64,000 nucleotides of DNA. It comes from Bradyrhizobium cytisi. GTDB lineage: Bacteria > Pseudomonadota > Alphaproteobacteria > Rhizobiales > Xanthobacteraceae. A model generated the notes under the pieces. The model did not search any database. It was not told where the DNA came from and saw only the letters and a list, made by a program, of their open reading frames with translations. Shown one piece after another: positions 41,284-63,277 of this stretch (positions are counted from its first letter, which is position 1; each line of letters begins with the position of its first letter). The translations under genes and the position numbers were made by a program. The stretch is taken from positions 1 to 64,000 of the forward strand of contig NZ_VSSR01000006.1 in the NCBI RefSeq assembly GCF_008123515.1, in the 5' to 3' direction.

Positions 41284-41422
41284 GGCTTGCAGGCCCCCTG
41301 TCGCCCGGCCAACGAGTCCGCGATCGGTTGCGATTCCGTTAACGATCTCTCGCAAGCCTATGTCAAACTCTTTGCTCTAAGAGTTCCCTCACCTGATGCA
41401 ATTCAGGATCAACACAGGGGGA

Positions 41423-56924: not shown

Positions 56925-58538
56925 TTAGTAGACGTCAGCCTGGAAGCGGCCCTTCTTCTTGAGATCGGCGACAAAACTGACGGCCTCATCGGTCGAGCGT
57001 GCGCCGAACTGGGCGACGATGTCGACCAGCGCGCGCTCGACATCCTTGGCCATGCGCTTGGCATCGCCGCAGATGTAGAGATGGGCGCCCTCGGCAAGCC
57101 ACGTCCAGACCTCGCGGCCGAGCTCGCGCATACGGTCCTGCACGTAAAACTTCTTCTCGCCGTCGCGCGACCAGGCGAGCGACAGGCGCGTCAGAAGGCC
57201 TGAGGTCTTCATCGCGTTGAGCTCGTCGCGATAGAAGAAATCGCAATCGCTGCGCTGATGGCCGAAGAACAGCCAGTTCTTGCCCTGCGCGCCGGTCGCC
57301 TTGCGGTCGAGCAGGAAGGCGCGGAACGGCGCAATGCCGGTGCCGGGGCCGATCATGATGACCGGAATCTTCGGATCCTCCGGCAGGCCGAAACCGTGCG
57401 CCTTCTGCACATAGACCTTGAGCTTGTCGCCCTCGTTGATGCGCTCGCCGAGGAAGGTCGAGGCGACGCCGACGCGCTTGCGCTTGCCGATGACGTAACG
57501 CACGGAATCGACCGTCAGCGACAGCTTTCCGGGCGTCGCATTGTGCGACGACGAGATCGAGTAGAGCCGCGGCTGCAGCGGCTCCAGCGCCTCGACGAAG
57601 GCTTCCGGATGCGGCCGCGTGCCCGAGAATTTCTGCAGCGCAGCCATCACGTCGAGCGTTGCCGCATCGCCATCGGGATCCTCGCCCTGCGCCAGCGCTC
57701 GCGCCTTCTCGCGCTGCGCACCGCCGGTGATGAAGGAGAGCAGCTCGAACAGCTTGTCCGGCGCCGGCGACAGCGAGACGTCCTCGACCAGCGCCTCGCG
57801 CAGCGTCTTGTTGTTGACCTTGGTGGTGTGGGACGCCCCGAGCAGCGCGATGATCTGGTCGACGAGACCGAGGTCGTTGCGCGCGAACACGCCAAAGCTG
57901 TCGCCCACGACGTAGTCGAGCTTGCTCTCGGAGAGATCGAACTCGACGTGATAAGTCTCCTTCTCCGAAGCGCCCTTGTTGAGCAGGTGCCGCGACAGGA
58001 AGGTCGCTTCAGCCGGATTTTCGCGGGCGCGGCCGGGCGCGGCCTTCACCTCCGGTGCAGCCGGTGCACTCGCGACCGCGGCCGCCCCTGCCGCAGGCTT
58101 TGCGGCCGGCACCTTGTCGACCTCCTCGAAAAGCTGCTTGAGCATCCGCGCCGTCTCCTTGCCGCCGGGGGCGCAGAGGTTGAGGCGCGCTTCGCTCTTG
58201 TTGGCGATCGAGTCCGAATAGTCGGCGCAATTGTAGCCGCACTGACCGCAATCCTGCTGCGCCATCGCGGCCATCATGCGGCGGCGGAGCGGACGTCCTT
58301 CCGCGAGCTTCATGCGGTCGGCGATCGCCATCGCCGGATCGTGCCAGGGGGCCTCCCCGTCATCGCCGTCGCCTTGCGGGCCGAGCATGACTCCGTTCTC
58401 GATCGGCGACAGCGCCGTCGAGCCGTCGAGGCCGAGCATGCCGACGAGAAACCCGTTCAGCCACAGCCGCTGGCCCTCGCTGAACGGGGCATTGGCCGGA
58501 ATGATCTCGATCGTGGGAGGCAGGGTCATCTGGGTCAT
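56925..58538 (-). CDS. flavoprotein reductase, sulfite/nitrite reductase partner (CysJ-like without flavodoxin)
   Basis: A 537-residue protein. Residues about 95-130 hold a Cys cluster (QQDCGQCGYNCADYSDSI then LNLCAPGG) of a Fe-S type domain. A low-complexity Ala/Pro link follows. From about residue 180 comes the FAD and NADPH reductase unit: PRLYSISSSHNATPGKLSLT (FAD), VIMIGPGTGIAPFRAFLLDR (NADPH), LYICGDAKRMAKDVERAL. There is no FMN flavodoxin domain, unlike CysJ. It overlaps the nitrite reductase gene by ATGA, so it is probably its electron donor. Confidence 0.85.
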   Translation of the reverse strand: MTQMTLPPTIEIIPANAPFSEGQRLWLNGFLVGMLGLDGSTALSPIENGVMLGPQGDGDDGEAPWHDPAMAIADRMKLAEGRPLRRRMMAAMAQQDCGQCGYNCADYSDSIANKSEARLNLCAPGGKETARMLKQLFEEVDKVPAAKPAAGAAAVASAPAAPEVKAAPGRARENPAEATFLSRHLLNKGASEKETYHVEFDLSESKLDYVVGDSFGVFARNDLGLVDQIIALLGASHTTKVNNKTLREALVEDVSLSPAPDKLFELLSFITGGAQREKARALAQGEDPDGDAATLDVMAALQKFSGTRPHPEAFVEALEPLQPRLYSISSSHNATPGKLSLTVDSVRYVIGKRKRVGVASTFLGERINEGDKLKVYVQKAHGFGLPEDPKIPVIMIGPGTGIAPFRAFLLDRKATGAQGKNWLFFGHQRSDCDFFYRDELNAMKTSGLLTRLSLAWSRDGEKKFYVQDRMRELGREVWTWLAEGAHLYICGDAKRMAKDVERALVDIVAQFGARSTDEAVSFVADLKKKGRFQADVY

Positions 58539-60331
58539 GCTGCTACTTCCGCTTCGGCGAGTTTGCGCAGGGCTTCACCGTCGTGACGACGGGAGAAGGT
58601 CAGGAACGTCTCTTCCGGCGAGGCGCGGTTGGCGAGATAGGCCTTGAGCAGGCTCTCGACGATCTTCGGAGCATCCTCGGCCTTCACGTTTTGAAACACC
58701 TCCTGCCCGATATCGGCATCGGGACCGAACCCGCCGCCGGTGAAGAGGTGATAACCCTCGACCGTGTCCTCTTCGCTCGCGCCTGGCACCTTGGCCGCGA
58801 TCAGGCCGATGTCGGAGATGTAGTGCTGCGCGCAGGAGTGATGGCAGCCGGTCAGATGGATGTTGAGCGGCGTATCGAGATTGACGCGCTCGTCGCACCA
58901 GTCGCCGATCGCGGCGGCATGACGCTTGGTGTCGGAGGCCGCGAACTTGCACCCGGCGTTGCCGGTGCAGGCGATCAGGCCGGCGCGGACGTTCGAGACT
59001 TCAGTGGCGAGGCCGAGCTTCTCGACCGCGGCGGTGACGAGCGCGACATTCTCGTCGCGCACGCCCGAGATCAGCAAGTTCTGCCAGACCGTGAGGCGGA
59101 TATCGCCGTCGCCGAGATCCTGCGAAATCTTCGCGAGGCCGCGCATCTGCCCGCAGGTGAGCTTGCCGACCGGCAGCGCCACGCCGACCCAGTTGAGCCC
59201 GGCCTGCTTCTGCTTGTGCACGCCGATATGGGCCATGCGGTCGGACAAGGGGCGCGACAGAAGCGCCTCGGCCGGCACGCGTGCGAAAGGCTTCTTCAGC
59301 CGCTCCTCGACCAGCTTGAGGAAGCCGTCGTGCCCCATATTGTCCAGCACGTATTTCAGCCGCGCCTTGTTGCGGTTGGTGCGGTCTCCGTGCTCGATGA
59401 AGACGCGCACGATGGCGTCGGCAACAGCGGTCGCGTCCTCAGGACGAACGACGATGCCCGAATATTTCGCAAAATCCTTGTGACCGGTGATGCCGCCAAG
59501 GCCGAGCTTGAACCAGATTCCGGGTTCGACGCCAAAGCCGTCCTTCACCTCGACCGCAGTGAAAGCGATGTCGTTGGTCTCCTCCAGCGCGGCGATCTTG
59601 CCGGCACCGTCGAAGGCAACGTTGAACTTACGCGGCAGGCCAAACAGCGAGCGGTCGTTGAGGATGTGGTAGTGCCATTCGCGTGCATAGGGGCGCGTGT
59701 CGAGCAGCTCCTGCGGATCGATGCCGGCCGTCGGCGTGCCCGTGACGTTGCGGATGTTGTCGGCGCCGGCGCCGCGCGAGCACAGGCCGATGTCCTGGAC
59801 GCCCTCGATCAGCGCCACCGCGTTCTTCGGCTCGATCTCGCGGATCTGGAAGTTGGCGCGAGTGGTGACGTGGGTGTAGCCGCCGCCACAGCTTTCCGCG
59901 ATGTCGGCGAGGCCCGACATCTGCCAGTGCTTCAAAATGCCGTTGGGAATGCGCAGGCGGGCCATGTAGGAGGTCTGCGTCGGCGCGACCCAGAAGATGC
60001 CGTAATAGCGCCAGCGGAAATTGTCCGCCGGCGTCGGGTTGGCGTTGTTGCGCGCCTGGTCCTTCAAGCGATCATAGGCATCGAACGGATGCAGCTCGCG
60101 CTTGAACTTCTCCTGGTCGGCGAGCTTCTTGCCCGCCGCCGTGAGCTTGTCCTGGGCCTTGATCGCCGCAGCGTCCGGCCCCATCGGCTCCGAGGGAGCG
60201 TTGGCCGCAGGCGCGCCGCCGGCTGCAAAGGCGCGCCCGACACGTCCGACCTGCATGCCGGACATGAAACCTTCGAGGTAGCGCTTCTGCTCGTCGGAGA
60301 AATCGGCCGTGGGTGCTGTATCGAATTTCAT
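58535..60331 (-). CDS. nirA: ferredoxin-type nitrite reductase (NirA family)
   Basis: A 598-residue siroheme/4Fe-4S enzyme that reduces nitrite to ammonium with six electrons. ATG 60331 (MKFDTAPTADFSDEQKRYLE) is chosen because it lies 13 bp after the channel gene. The two ferredoxin-like halves are seen (GGGYTHVTTRANFQIREIEP; LNWVGVALPVGKLTCGQMRG). The Fe-S/siroheme Cys are in LIACTGNAGCKFAASD and LTGCHHSCAQHYISDIGL. Sulfite reductase (CysI) is the closest alternative; the FNT channel and NasTS neighbours favour nitrite. Confidence 0.88.
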   Translation of the reverse strand: MKFDTAPTADFSDEQKRYLEGFMSGMQVGRVGRAFAAGGAPAANAPSEPMGPDAAAIKAQDKLTAAGKKLADQEKFKRELHPFDAYDRLKDQARNNANPTPADNFRWRYYGIFWVAPTQTSYMARLRIPNGILKHWQMSGLADIAESCGGGYTHVTTRANFQIREIEPKNAVALIEGVQDIGLCSRGAGADNIRNVTGTPTAGIDPQELLDTRPYAREWHYHILNDRSLFGLPRKFNVAFDGAGKIAALEETNDIAFTAVEVKDGFGVEPGIWFKLGLGGITGHKDFAKYSGIVVRPEDATAVADAIVRVFIEHGDRTNRNKARLKYVLDNMGHDGFLKLVEERLKKPFARVPAEALLSRPLSDRMAHIGVHKQKQAGLNWVGVALPVGKLTCGQMRGLAKISQDLGDGDIRLTVWQNLLISGVRDENVALVTAAVEKLGLATEVSNVRAGLIACTGNAGCKFAASDTKRHAAAIGDWCDERVNLDTPLNIHLTGCHHSCAQHYISDIGLIAAKVPGASEEDTVEGYHLFTGGGFGPDADIGQEVFQNVKAEDAPKIVESLLKAYLANRASPEETFLTFSRRHDGEALRKLAEAEVAA

Positions 60332-60344
60332 GGGCTGAATAGAC

Positions 60345-61175
60345 CTACTCTGCTGCCTGGACCGCGACCTGCGCGACGTCGGCCGTGGGCTTGGCGGGCT
60401 TGTACGTGGCGTAGAGCGCAAGGCCGGTGAAGACGAAGCCGCCGACGAGATTGCCGAGCGTCACCGGGATCTGATTCCACAGCCACCAGTCGGAGAGGCT
60501 GACCTTGGCGCCCAGCAGCATGCCGGTCGGGATGACGAACATGTTGACGACGGCGTGCTCGAAGCCGAGCGCGAAGAACAGGAAGATCGGCAGCCAGGTC
60601 GCCGCGATCTTGCCGACCGTGGAGGTCGAGGTCATCGCCATGACGACGCCGAGGCAAACCAGCCAGTTGCAGAGGATCGCCTTGACGAAGACGGAGACCA
60701 TGCCCGCGGTGCCGATCGCGGCATTGCCGATGGTCTTGGCTTCGGCCACCGCAACGATCCGGGCGGCGACGCCAGCGACCTCGACCTTGCCCATGTTAGT
60801 GAGCGAGATCGCGATCAACACGCCGAAAGCGAGGCTGCCGAGCAGATTGGCGATGAAGACCCAGGACCAGTTGGAGATCACCGCATTCCAGCTCGCCTTG
60901 CCCTCGAGGCGCGCCAGCGGAATGATGGCGAAGCTGCCGGTGACGAGCTCGAGGCCGAGCAGAACGATCATCACGAGGCTGACGGGAAAGATCAGCGCGC
61001 CGACGAGAGGCTGGCCGGTGGTGAGAGCGCCGCTGAAGGCGAGCGTGGTGGCGGCGCCGAGCAGCGCACCGGAAATCGCGCCGCGGATCATGATGTCGCG
61101 CGGGGCCAGCGCCAGCTTCTTCAGGCTGGCATCGACCATCGAGGCCACAACGTCGGAGGGTTTCGCGTAATCCAT
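60345..61175 (-). CDS. formate/nitrite transporter family channel
   Basis: A 276-residue FNT channel, a pentamer that passes small anions. Six helices are visible, with the family blocks FPVSLVMIVLLGLELVTGSF, KAILCNWLVCLGVVMAM and FALGFEHAVVNMFVIPTGML (the pore His). GGAGC precedes the ATG. Upstream lies a 350-bp leader with the promoter and RNA motif described separately. It is the first gene of the operon, so it likely imports nitrite for NirA. Confidence 0.92.
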   Translation of the reverse strand: MDYAKPSDVVASMVDASLKKLALAPRDIMIRGAISGALLGAATTLAFSGALTTGQPLVGALIFPVSLVMIVLLGLELVTGSFAIIPLARLEGKASWNAVISNWSWVFIANLLGSLAFGVLIAISLTNMGKVEVAGVAARIVAVAEAKTIGNAAIGTAGMVSVFVKAILCNWLVCLGVVMAMTSTSTVGKIAATWLPIFLFFALGFEHAVVNMFVIPTGMLLGAKVSLSDWWLWNQIPVTLGNLVGGFVFTGLALYATYKPAKPTADVAQVAVQAAE

Positions 61176-61275
61176 ATCGAAGCTCCAGCTTGCCGCGCGA
61201 AAGGCGGCGTCAACGGGTTGAACGGACGTCGATCGCTGGGAGGCGGTTGGAGGCGCATAAGCGCCCAGCCGGAAC

Positions 61276-61304
61276 CCGGAACGATCCGATCAGCTTCGTT
61301 GCTG
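61276..61304 (-). promoter_or_regulatory. two tandem A1-G4 hexaloop hairpins, candidate NasT (ANTAR) binding RNA
   Basis: On the minus strand the leader reads CAGC-AACGAA-GCTG, then one A, then TCGG-ATCGTT-CCGG. Both are four-pair stems with six-base loops, and both loops have A at position 1 and G at position 4, the rule for RNAs bound by ANTAR antiterminators. The element lies 101 bases upstream of the channel start and 60 or so downstream of the predicted sigma-54 start. The second stem can re-pair with CCGGGTTCCGG just beyond it, which would exclude the ANTAR fold. A strong hairpin GGCGC-TTAT-GCGCC follows (61252-61265). Confidence 0.7.
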
Positions 61305-61364
61305 CGGAAATCCACCATGGACTGGAGCCGCCGGCGCCCACGCCGGACGGCTTGGGTTCTCCCT

Positions 61365-61382
61365 ATTCAAGGAGTGTGCCAA
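61365..61382 (-). promoter_or_regulatory. sigma-54-like promoter of the nitrite operon
   Basis: The minus strand reads TTGGCACACTCCTTGAAT. TGGCAC matches the -24 element exactly and, after the correct spacing, TTGAA stands where TTGCA is expected at -12, one mismatch in the key GC pair. A palindromic TGCA-N-TGCA lies about 50 bp upstream (61431-61439), a possible site for an enhancer protein. The predicted start is near 61355, followed at once by a strong hairpin (61326-61352). Confidence 0.5.
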
Positions 61383-61526
61383 CGCAACATAAACGGCAAA
61401 GCCGTATAAGATCAGTAGTTTAGGATTGTGTGCAGTGCATGAAGTGGACCGCAATTCATGCCACTTCGGGCAGCAATAGCCCAAAGATTAAGCTTCGAAT
61501 CGATGTGATTAAGAAATGAGCAGGCC

Positions 61527-62690
61527 TTATGGAGCCCGTCTCCCGACCTCGAACGAGGACAGATAGCCGCCGAGATCGGCGGGATCGAAGGCCGGTCCGG
61601 CGAAGGCCCTGAACGGCGTGCTAGCCTGACCGTCTCCGCTGTGGCCCAAGGCAGCATCGTAGAGATCCGGCCGGAACACGGCCATGGCGGTCTTGAGCGC
61701 CTCAGCGCTCAGCGCCGTCTGCCCCCAGCGCACCATCTGCGCATAGAGCCAGGCAGCCTGGACCGGCTCTGGGCGCCCTGCCCCTTCGCGTCCGACCAGC
61801 AGGTAGCGAGCACTTTCACGGAACGTACCGTCGGGCGAAATCTTCAGCCGCCCCGTGAGCGTGCGCTGGATGACTTCGGCATCGACGCCGATCCGTTCAG
61901 GCTGCGCCAGGATATGCGATGTCTCGGCGAGGTTTGCGGTCTCCTCGATGAATTCGGTCCCCTTCACCGCCGCGCGCACCAGCGCCGCGACCACGTCCGG
62001 ATGCTTGTCGGCCCAGATCTGGCGCACCGCCAGCACCTTCTCCGCTGCGCGCACCAGGATATCGGACACGAAATGCAGGATGTGGCCGATGCCGAGATCG
62101 ACGGCGACCGAATTCCAGGGCGCGCCGACGCAGAAGGCATCGACATGACCGTTGGCGAGGCTGTCGACCATGTAGGGCGGCGGGAGCACCACCAGACGCA
62201 CGTCCTCATCGGGATCGACGCCGGCCGCCGCCATCCAGAACCGCAGTTGGTAATTGTGGGTCGAGAACGGAAAGGTCATGCCGAAGGTCAGCGGGTCGGC
62301 ACCCGCCTTGCGCCGCTTGGCCACCACCTTCGCCAGTGCTTTCGCGGTCGCGAGCGGATCGAAACGATCGCCGTCGATCTCCTCCATCAGCGCGGCAAGG
62401 AGTGCCGGCGACACCGTGATCGCATTGCCGTTGATGCCGAGACTGAAGGGCGCCACGATCGGCACCTTGACGTGGCCGAGCCCGAGCGAGGACGCGATCG
62501 CCACGGGCGCGAGCAGATGCGCGGCGTCGAACAGGCCGATGTTGAGCTTGTCGCGGACGTTGGACCAGGACACCTCGCGCACCAGCTCGACCTCGAGACC
62601 CTCGGCGGCGGCAAAGCCCTTGTCCACGGCGATGATCAGGGCGGCGGCATCGACCAGCGGGATGAACCCGATGCGGAGGGTCGCGGTCAT
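61527..62690 (-). CDS. nasS: nitrate sensor NasS (NrtA/CmpA-like, cytosolic)
   Basis: A 387-residue periplasmic-binding-type protein without a signal peptide: it opens MTATLRIGFIPLVDAAALII directly on the fold. Family blocks: WSNVRDKLNIGLFDAAHLLA, PFSTHNYQLRFWMAAAGVDP, YMVDSLANGHVDAFCVGAPW and VRQIWADKHPDVVAALVRA. It resembles the nitrate receptor NrtA, and lack of export marks NasS, which holds NasT in an inactive complex until nitrate or nitrite binds. It overlaps nasT by four bases. Confidence 0.9.
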   Translation of the reverse strand: MTATLRIGFIPLVDAAALIIAVDKGFAAAEGLEVELVREVSWSNVRDKLNIGLFDAAHLLAPVAIASSLGLGHVKVPIVAPFSLGINGNAITVSPALLAALMEEIDGDRFDPLATAKALAKVVAKRRKAGADPLTFGMTFPFSTHNYQLRFWMAAAGVDPDEDVRLVVLPPPYMVDSLANGHVDAFCVGAPWNSVAVDLGIGHILHFVSDILVRAAEKVLAVRQIWADKHPDVVAALVRAAVKGTEFIEETANLAETSHILAQPERIGVDAEVIQRTLTGRLKISPDGTFRESARYLLVGREGAGRPEPVQAAWLYAQMVRWGQTALSAEALKTAMAVFRPDLYDAALGHSGDGQASTPFRAFAGPAFDPADLGGYLSSFEVGRRAP

Positions 62691-63277
62691 TTCAGCATCT
62701 CCGACGCGGTGATGATCGACTGCGCGATCTCGCCGATCTTCTTCTTCTCGCGCATGGCGGTGGAACGCAGCAGCACGTAGGCCTCGTCCTCGTTGAGGCC
62801 CTTGACCTTCATCAGGATTCCCTTGGCCTTCTCGATGATCTTGCGGTCCTCGAGCTGCGACTTGGTCCGCTCCAGCTCCTCCTGGAGTTTTGCGAAAGCG
62901 TTGAAGCGCGACACGCAGAGGTCGAGGATCGGCTTGATGCGCTCCTTCTTCAACCCGTCGACGATGTAGGCGGACACCCCTGCCTCCACGGAGGCCTGGA
63001 TCGAGGATGAATCGCTCTGGTCGACGAACATCGCGATCGGCCGCCGCACGGCGCGGCTGACCTGGAACATCGCCTCCAGCACGTCGCGGCTGGGGTTTTC
63101 CAGATCGATCAGGATGATGTCGGGGTCAACGGCGTAGATACGCGCAAGAAGGCTCTGCATCTCGCGGATATGGACGATTTGCGTGAATCCGGCCTCCCGC
63201 AATCCTTCCTCGAGGATCGCGGCCCGGATCGGGCTCTCGTCGACAATCACGATTTTAGGCGACTGTTCGGCGCTCAT
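62687..63277 (-). CDS. nasT: ANTAR antiterminator NasT
   Basis: A 196-residue two-domain protein. The N-terminal pseudo-receiver reads KIVIVDESPIRAAILEEGLR and DIILIDLENPSRDVLEAMF with the Asp at the usual place. The C-terminal ANTAR domain is LEDRKIIEKAKGILMKVKGL followed by DEAYVLLRSTAMREKKKIGE, the RNA-binding three-helix unit. NasT binds leader RNA with two A1-G4 hexaloop hairpins and prevents termination. Such a motif is found upstream of the channel gene. Confidence 0.95.
   Translation of the reverse strand: MSAEQSPKIVIVDESPIRAAILEEGLREAGFTQIVHIREMQSLLARIYAVDPDIILIDLENPSRDVLEAMFQVSRAVRRPIAMFVDQSDSSSIQASVEAGVSAYIVDGLKKERIKPILDLCVSRFNAFAKLQEELERTKSQLEDRKIIEKAKGILMKVKGLNEDEAYVLLRSTAMREKKKIGEIAQSIITASEMLK

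Follow-up and report, generated by a model that had tools for sequence, protein, structure and literature searches.

The genes considered here all lie on the minus strand of the window, which is the whole 64,000-nt stretch of Bradyrhizobium DNA that was analyzed. In the order of their transcription, these are nasT, nasS and then, after an intergenic region of 351 nt, genes for an FNT-family formate/nitrite channel, for the nitrite reductase NirA, and for a CysJ-like flavoprotein (Table 1). NasS, a ligand-binding protein of the NMT1_2 type, is presumed to be the sensor for nitrate and nitrite. The FNT gene scores 164.4 bits against TIGR00790, below that model's cut-off of 232.3; its relatives in B. 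centrolobii, B. zhengyangense, and Bradyrhizobium sp. CCGUVB4N share 97-98% identity.

Table 1. Genes and leader features at the nasT-nasS-FNT-nirA locus, with positions in the window.
Feature	Position	Strand	Basis
nasT	62687..63277	minus	response-regulator receiver (Pfam Response_reg, 37 bits) and RNA-binding domain (Pfam ANTAR, 69.4 bits)
nasS	61527..62690	minus	Pfam NMT1_2, 238 bits; adjoins nasT
Sigma-54-like promoter, TGGCAC-N5-TTGAA	61366..61381	minus	10 of 11 consensus letters
5' leader hairpin, GCCG...CGGC	61327..61351	minus	predicted fold
P1, hexaloop hairpin CAGC-AACGAA-GCTG (presumably bound by NasT)	61291..61304	minus	pairs in 96/96 distinct leaders
P2 as originally predicted, TCGG-ATCGTT-CCGG	61276..61289	minus	complete in 16/96 leaders; no double changes
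Conserved strand CGGATCG (CGGAYCG), which includes the second-loop letters A1 and G4	61282..61288	minus	alignment
CGATC, which may pair with GATCG (61282-61286) as the 3' side of a stop hairpin	61231..61235	minus	pairing over 96 leaders
GGAG, putative ribosome-binding site for FNT	61183..61186	minus	sequence
FNT-family formate/nitrite channel gene	60345..61175	minus	Pfam Form_Nir_trans, 218.7 bits
nirA, ferredoxin-type assimilatory nitrite reductase	58535..60331	minus	NF007126 (NirA family protein), 1018.8 bits, cut-off 523
CysJ-like flavoprotein gene (sulfite reductase subunit alpha family)	56925..58538	minus	NF004859, 886.3 bits, cut-off 432

The original prediction named nasT as the sole ANTAR gene in the window, and no other is shown there. 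Elsewhere in the genome (8.85 Mb searched, in 186 contigs) there is a second one (locus L082, contig C132, 1414-2235, minus strand). This second gene scores 43.9 bits for ANTAR, gives a weak AmiR_N match below the cut-off of that model, and appears by eye to be flanked by two genes for ABC-type solute-binding proteins. It is perhaps part of an AmiC-AmiR-like system.

The promoter in Table 1 was scored against the sigma-54 consensus. A consensus scan for terminators from 61100 to 61560 returned two sites where 0.5 would be expected from shuffled sequence, both on the minus strand and both with T-rich tails: one at the end of nasS (61538-61521), the other directly upstream of the promoter (61405-61393). 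These hairpins may end the nasT-nasS transcript ahead of the nirA operon. Between the promoter and the start of the FNT gene, the same scan found no terminator-like site and no U-tract, which bears out the earlier remark that a U-rich terminator is missing from this leader.

Hexaloop hairpins and chance

Read on the minus strand from 61304 to 61276, the leader contains CAGC AACGAA GCTG A TCGG ATCGTT CCGG. Here, as originally described, two adjacent stems of 4 bp (the second with one U-G pair) each close a hexaloop having A at its first and G at its fourth position (A1/G4). The linker between them is a single nucleotide.

Both strands of the window were searched for two A1/G4 hexaloops on four-pair stems, with G-U pairs allowed and a linker of 0-12 nt. 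The window holds three such pairs; 20 dinucleotide shuffles gave a mean of 2.35 (range 0-7). Thus, the tandem motif alone is not above chance, and tandem hexaloops were rejected as stand-alone evidence. When only Watson-Crick stems are counted, the site at 61276-61304 drops out and one other site in the window qualifies, against a mean of 0.2 in shuffles. That other pair lies at 41402 and 41378 on the minus strand, with a 10-nt linker. Single A1/G4 hexaloops on 4-bp stems are common, numbering 67 and 68 on the two strands. The folding energy of the leader is also unremarkable (z of -1.44, with 18 of 200 shuffles equal or lower).

General RNA family models added nothing at this site. The Rfam 15 models gave no match to 61150-61530 up to an E value of 10, and a scan of the whole window at gathering thresholds found one tRNA elsewhere and nothing at the leader. 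What lifts the motif above chance is its conservation across Bradyrhizobium.

Conservation of the leader across Bradyrhizobium

A covariance model of 33 positions, R1, was built from the first hairpin (CAGC-AACGAR-GCUG, called P1) and the strand that follows it, CGGAYCG. R1 matches 96 of 117 Bradyrhizobium genomes, 93 of them at a single site. In the genome of the window, the leader scores 54.1 bits, while the next site scores 18.9 bits (E 0.7). Six further matches in that genome have E values from 0.7 to 5; at two of these (L166 and L168), the open reading frames include nothing nitrate-related by eye.

Used as a DNA query, the leader finds matches in 82 of the 117 genomes. In many of these, the match spans only about 28-44 nt, covering P1 and its surroundings, and in distant members of the genus the match shrinks to about 28 nt, namely P1 and the strand after it.

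The alignment, which leaves out genomes matched by R1 and not by this DNA search, was anchored on the P1 sequence (AGCAACGA). It comprised 106 loci (L001-L024 and L083-L164), from which three without the core (L020, L022, L023) were removed; the remaining 103 gave 96 distinct leaders, some of which may come from the same species, as two collections had been used. Loci with more distant FNT genes (L025-L080) were scanned for the strict motif only.

Gene order around the core is nearly uniform. NasS or nasT lies upstream in 101 of the 103 loci, the other two beginning at a contig end near the site. Downstream, an FNT gene or nirA is found in all 103, with FNT first in 34 and nirA first in 69. 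The sigma-54-like promoter is present with 10 of 11 letters in every one of the 96 distinct leaders, 65-100 nt before AGCAACGA.

These results bear on the proposal that the hairpins are incidental and that nitrogen control acts through the sigma-54 promoter only. The uniform conservation of the promoter is what such a proposal expects, and hexaloop pairs are about as frequent in shuffled sequence as in the window. Against this stand the stretch of P1 and its neighboring strand, which is all that still matches in distant members of the genus, and the presence in the genome of one strong R1 site, placed beside nasTS. Further, nirA expression depends on NasT in B. diazoefficiens (PMC4724949; this and the other papers cited are represented here by excerpts). 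The proposal therefore deserves hardly any credence.

The regulator itself is more widespread than the leader, with NasT present in 115 of the 117 genomes. All 20 genomes that have NasT and no R1 match served as controls; one (L207), whose sequence ends before nasS, was left out, and the other 19 extend past nasS. In 18 of the 19, the stretch of about 0.5-1.3 kb past nasS contains neither nirA (which may lie elsewhere in the genome) nor AGCAACGA, and within 420 nt of the end of nasS no sigma-54 match does better than 7 or 8 of 11 letters. Only L198 differs: nirA follows, the promoter matches 10 of 11 letters, and a canonical P1 is lacking. As the controls without nirA are also without promoter and leader, leader and promoter track nirA, not nasT-nasS; genus-wide, the presumed NasT switch accompanies nirA together with a sigma-54-like promoter.

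Two side observations concern gene content. The 18 genomes without leader (L192-L197, L199-L206, L208-L211) have retained nasT-nasS with no nirA behind it, and NasT presumably has other targets there. In two nirA-first loci (L094 and L095), a short frame, MDYQNPSH..., comes between the leader and nirA and is similar to the FNT start MDYAKPSD.... It looks as though a deletion removed FNT but spared the leader and the first few codons of the gene.

A further cluster in the genome of the window (L191, contig C99:154000-161500) consists of consecutive genes for narK, a globin, a flavoprotein, and a nasC-like protein, the narK match (300.1 bits) falling just below its cut-off of 311.7. A sigma-54-like site (9 of 11) precedes narK, and no P1-like site does. 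One AACGGC hexaloop on a 5-bp stem precedes the globin gene, in agreement with the published prediction for bjgb; it is also in line with how common single A1/G4 hexaloops are.

Helices of the leader

P1 pairs in all of the distinct leaders, a count that partly reflects the anchoring on its sequence, and three of its four pairs are invariant. Because P1 hardly varies, and because the loci were anchored on it, P1 provides no evidence from covariation. A first stem with an A1/G4 hexaloop was found in 96 of 96, and P1 fits 12 of the 13 letters of the eut element, AGCAANGRRGCUY.

The second hairpin, P2, is another matter. Counted independently of the aligned columns, which are gappy there, all four of its pairs form in 16 leaders; 19 have three, and the other 61 have at most two. 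Of the 27 FNT-bearing leaders, 14 have the full stem, as against 2 of the 69 nirA-first leaders. No compensatory changes on both sides of P2 were found in the 96 leaders. The loop letters A1 and G4 of P2 nevertheless both persist in 87 of the 96.

The original prediction called for A1 and G4 and the stems to be conserved among homologous leaders. The first hairpin and the second-loop letters hold to this; the P2 stem does not. The second hexaloop was thus not borne out as a conserved helix, and a tandem pair, here with a linker of 1 nt, is not supported as the conserved rule of recognition. The alternative CCGGGTTCCGG fold, which was to have provided the choice between on and off, is absent from the minimum-energy structure. 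Its sequence occurs in part of the FNT-bearing leaders only; not being conserved among the leaders, it was rejected as a general switch.

These counts also weigh on a classical antiterminator with two hexaloops, in which both hairpins form, each loop is contacted by NasT, and the CCGGGTTCCGG fold or a terminator serves as the off state. Both hairpins can, of course, be read in the sequence of the window; about half of the FNT-bearing leaders have P2 complete, and the second-loop letters persist in most of the 96. In the excerpts available, both loops and the distance between them matter to antitermination by EutV (PMC8934654). The near absence of a complete P2 in nirA-first leaders, its lack of double changes, a 1-nt linker where eut leaders have 5-12 nt, and the lack of conservation of CCGGGTTCCGG nevertheless make this arrangement unlikely.

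The retained letters of the second loop could also be explained by pairing of the CGGAYCG strand with a downstream strand, CGRUC. Over the 96 leaders, 88.3% of cells in the GAYCG/CGRUC helix are paired. One pair of this putative stop stem has double changes, being C-G in 64 leaders and U-A in 27, mainly as a single split between groups. The three-helix structure has a covariation score of 0.076, and a slide by one column scores higher, at 0.136. The predicted probability of the stem is 0.97 in the leader of the window and at least 0.5 in 41 of the 96. Altogether, the alignment gives the stop stem modest, suggestive support.

Other helices fared less well. An inward extension of the stop stem was rejected, having 0.94 pairs against 1.12 in shuffled sequence. 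A hairpin UCCA...UGGA before P1 was also set aside; 72.4% of its cells are paired and two of its pairs have one double change each, but it is lost in GTCCC-type leaders. Leaders of that type, L130 and L137 among them, show by eye an inverted repeat, AAGCTGGC...GCCAGCTT; one arm overlaps the -24 part of the sigma-54-like site, and the other lies in the start of the leader. Also by eye, the predicted fold of the window leader has an extended P1, with UCCG and CGGA around it.

A leader with no terminator-like site might instead control translation, with NasT freeing the ribosome-binding site of the FNT gene, and the minimum-energy fold does pair the GGAG region with GUUCCGGCU. However, when P1 and CGGAYCG were kept unpaired, the mean unpaired probability of GGAG moved only from 0.198 to 0.204 over 95 leaders (L144 was skipped). 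Six leaders gained at least 0.2 in accessibility and six lost it; the leader of the window went from 0.01 to 0.00. With mean accessibility unchanged, a ribosome-binding-site switch is not supported. The published nirA fusions are, moreover, transcriptional (PMC4724949). Control of translation is thus quite improbable, and control probably acts on transcription.

A proposed circuit and its known relatives

The evidence obtained here is sequence, gene order, conservation, promoter, and co-occurrence with nirA. It makes it likely that this is a NasT-responsive 5' leader of a nitrite-assimilation operon, in which NasT released by NasS permits read-through. The original placing of an ANTAR leader before this operon, beside its own regulator, is likewise supported by conservation, by gene order, and by the precedent of nirA in B. 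diazoefficiens.

The circuit might work as follows. The sigma-54 promoter would begin, from a predicted start site, a leader of about 180 nt. Without nitrate or nitrite, NasS would hold NasT, and transcription would be expected to end within the leader, the likely place being a putative stop fold in which CGGAYCG pairs with the downstream CGRUC. Nitrate or nitrite would cause NasS to let NasT go. The freed NasT would then bind the P1 hexaloop (AACGAR), perhaps with the next strand too. This binding would block the stop fold, allowing RNA polymerase to continue into FNT, nirA, and the flavoprotein gene.

A more specific version of this circuit may be offered, tentatively. Here, NasT would use a single hexaloop, P1, together with the adjacent CGGAYCG strand; a hairpin without a U-tract would take up CGGAYCG in the off state; and the stop would be Rho-dependent or a pause, unlike that in eut. 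Were this true, ANTAR searches that require two hexaloops and a longer linker would miss such leaders. In any case, the 96 aligned leaders indicate which hairpin to test.

The circuit is essentially known already from B. diazoefficiens, and what is added is some detail of its anatomy. Four points did not come up in those parts of the open-access literature available to us: leaders aligned across the genus, a weakly conserved P2, the joint occurrence of leader and nirA, and a channel gene interposed between the two. This is not to claim that they are unpublished.

In B. diazoefficiens, nitrate induces nirA through NasS-NasT (PMC4724949). With nitrate, the activity of a nirA-lacZ fusion went from 137 to 395 units in the wild type, from 163 to 203 in a nasT mutant, and from 412 to 372 in a nasS mutant (PMC4724949). 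Deletion of nasT lowered nirA mRNA, and a clear hairpin for interaction with NasT was predicted in the nirA leader (PMC6759348). The nirA gene of strain USDA 110 (bll4571) shares with the window its nasT-nasS-nirA neighborhood and predicted NasT hairpin (PMC4724949; PMC6759348); as described in these excerpts, it differs from the window, where the leader is separated from nirA by an FNT channel gene. The nosR leader of the same species, for which direct interaction with NasT and interference with a terminator have been reported (Sanchez 2017, cited in PMC6759348 and PMC5582078), has the same regulator, but its target is denitrification. In the genome of the window, neither NosZ nor NapA was matched above its family cut-off.

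In Paracoccus denitrificans, NasT binds the nasA leader RNA (PMC3795266), in which hairpin HI is required and attenuation may owe something to HII (PMC5424462). Like the leader described here, this one lies between nasTS and nitrate/nitrite genes. It drives nasABGHC, whereas the leader of the window would drive FNT-nirA.

The eut leaders of Enterococcus faecalis share with the window a first hexaloop having A1 and G4 (PMC3369931, PMC8934654). Their linkers are 5-12 nt long, and a linker of 3 nt strongly lowered induction (PMC3369931). In ANTAR-bearing genomes, an overlapping terminator was found at about 30% of hits (PMC3369931). As these excerpts describe them, eut leaders have two hexaloops and intrinsic terminators; the window has a 1-nt linker, an unconserved P2, and no U-rich terminator. 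The minimal ANTAR target has been redefined as one hexaloop, and yet eut antitermination is held to require contact with both loops (PMC8934654). A lone P1 as the target of NasT is thus offered here as a hypothesis.
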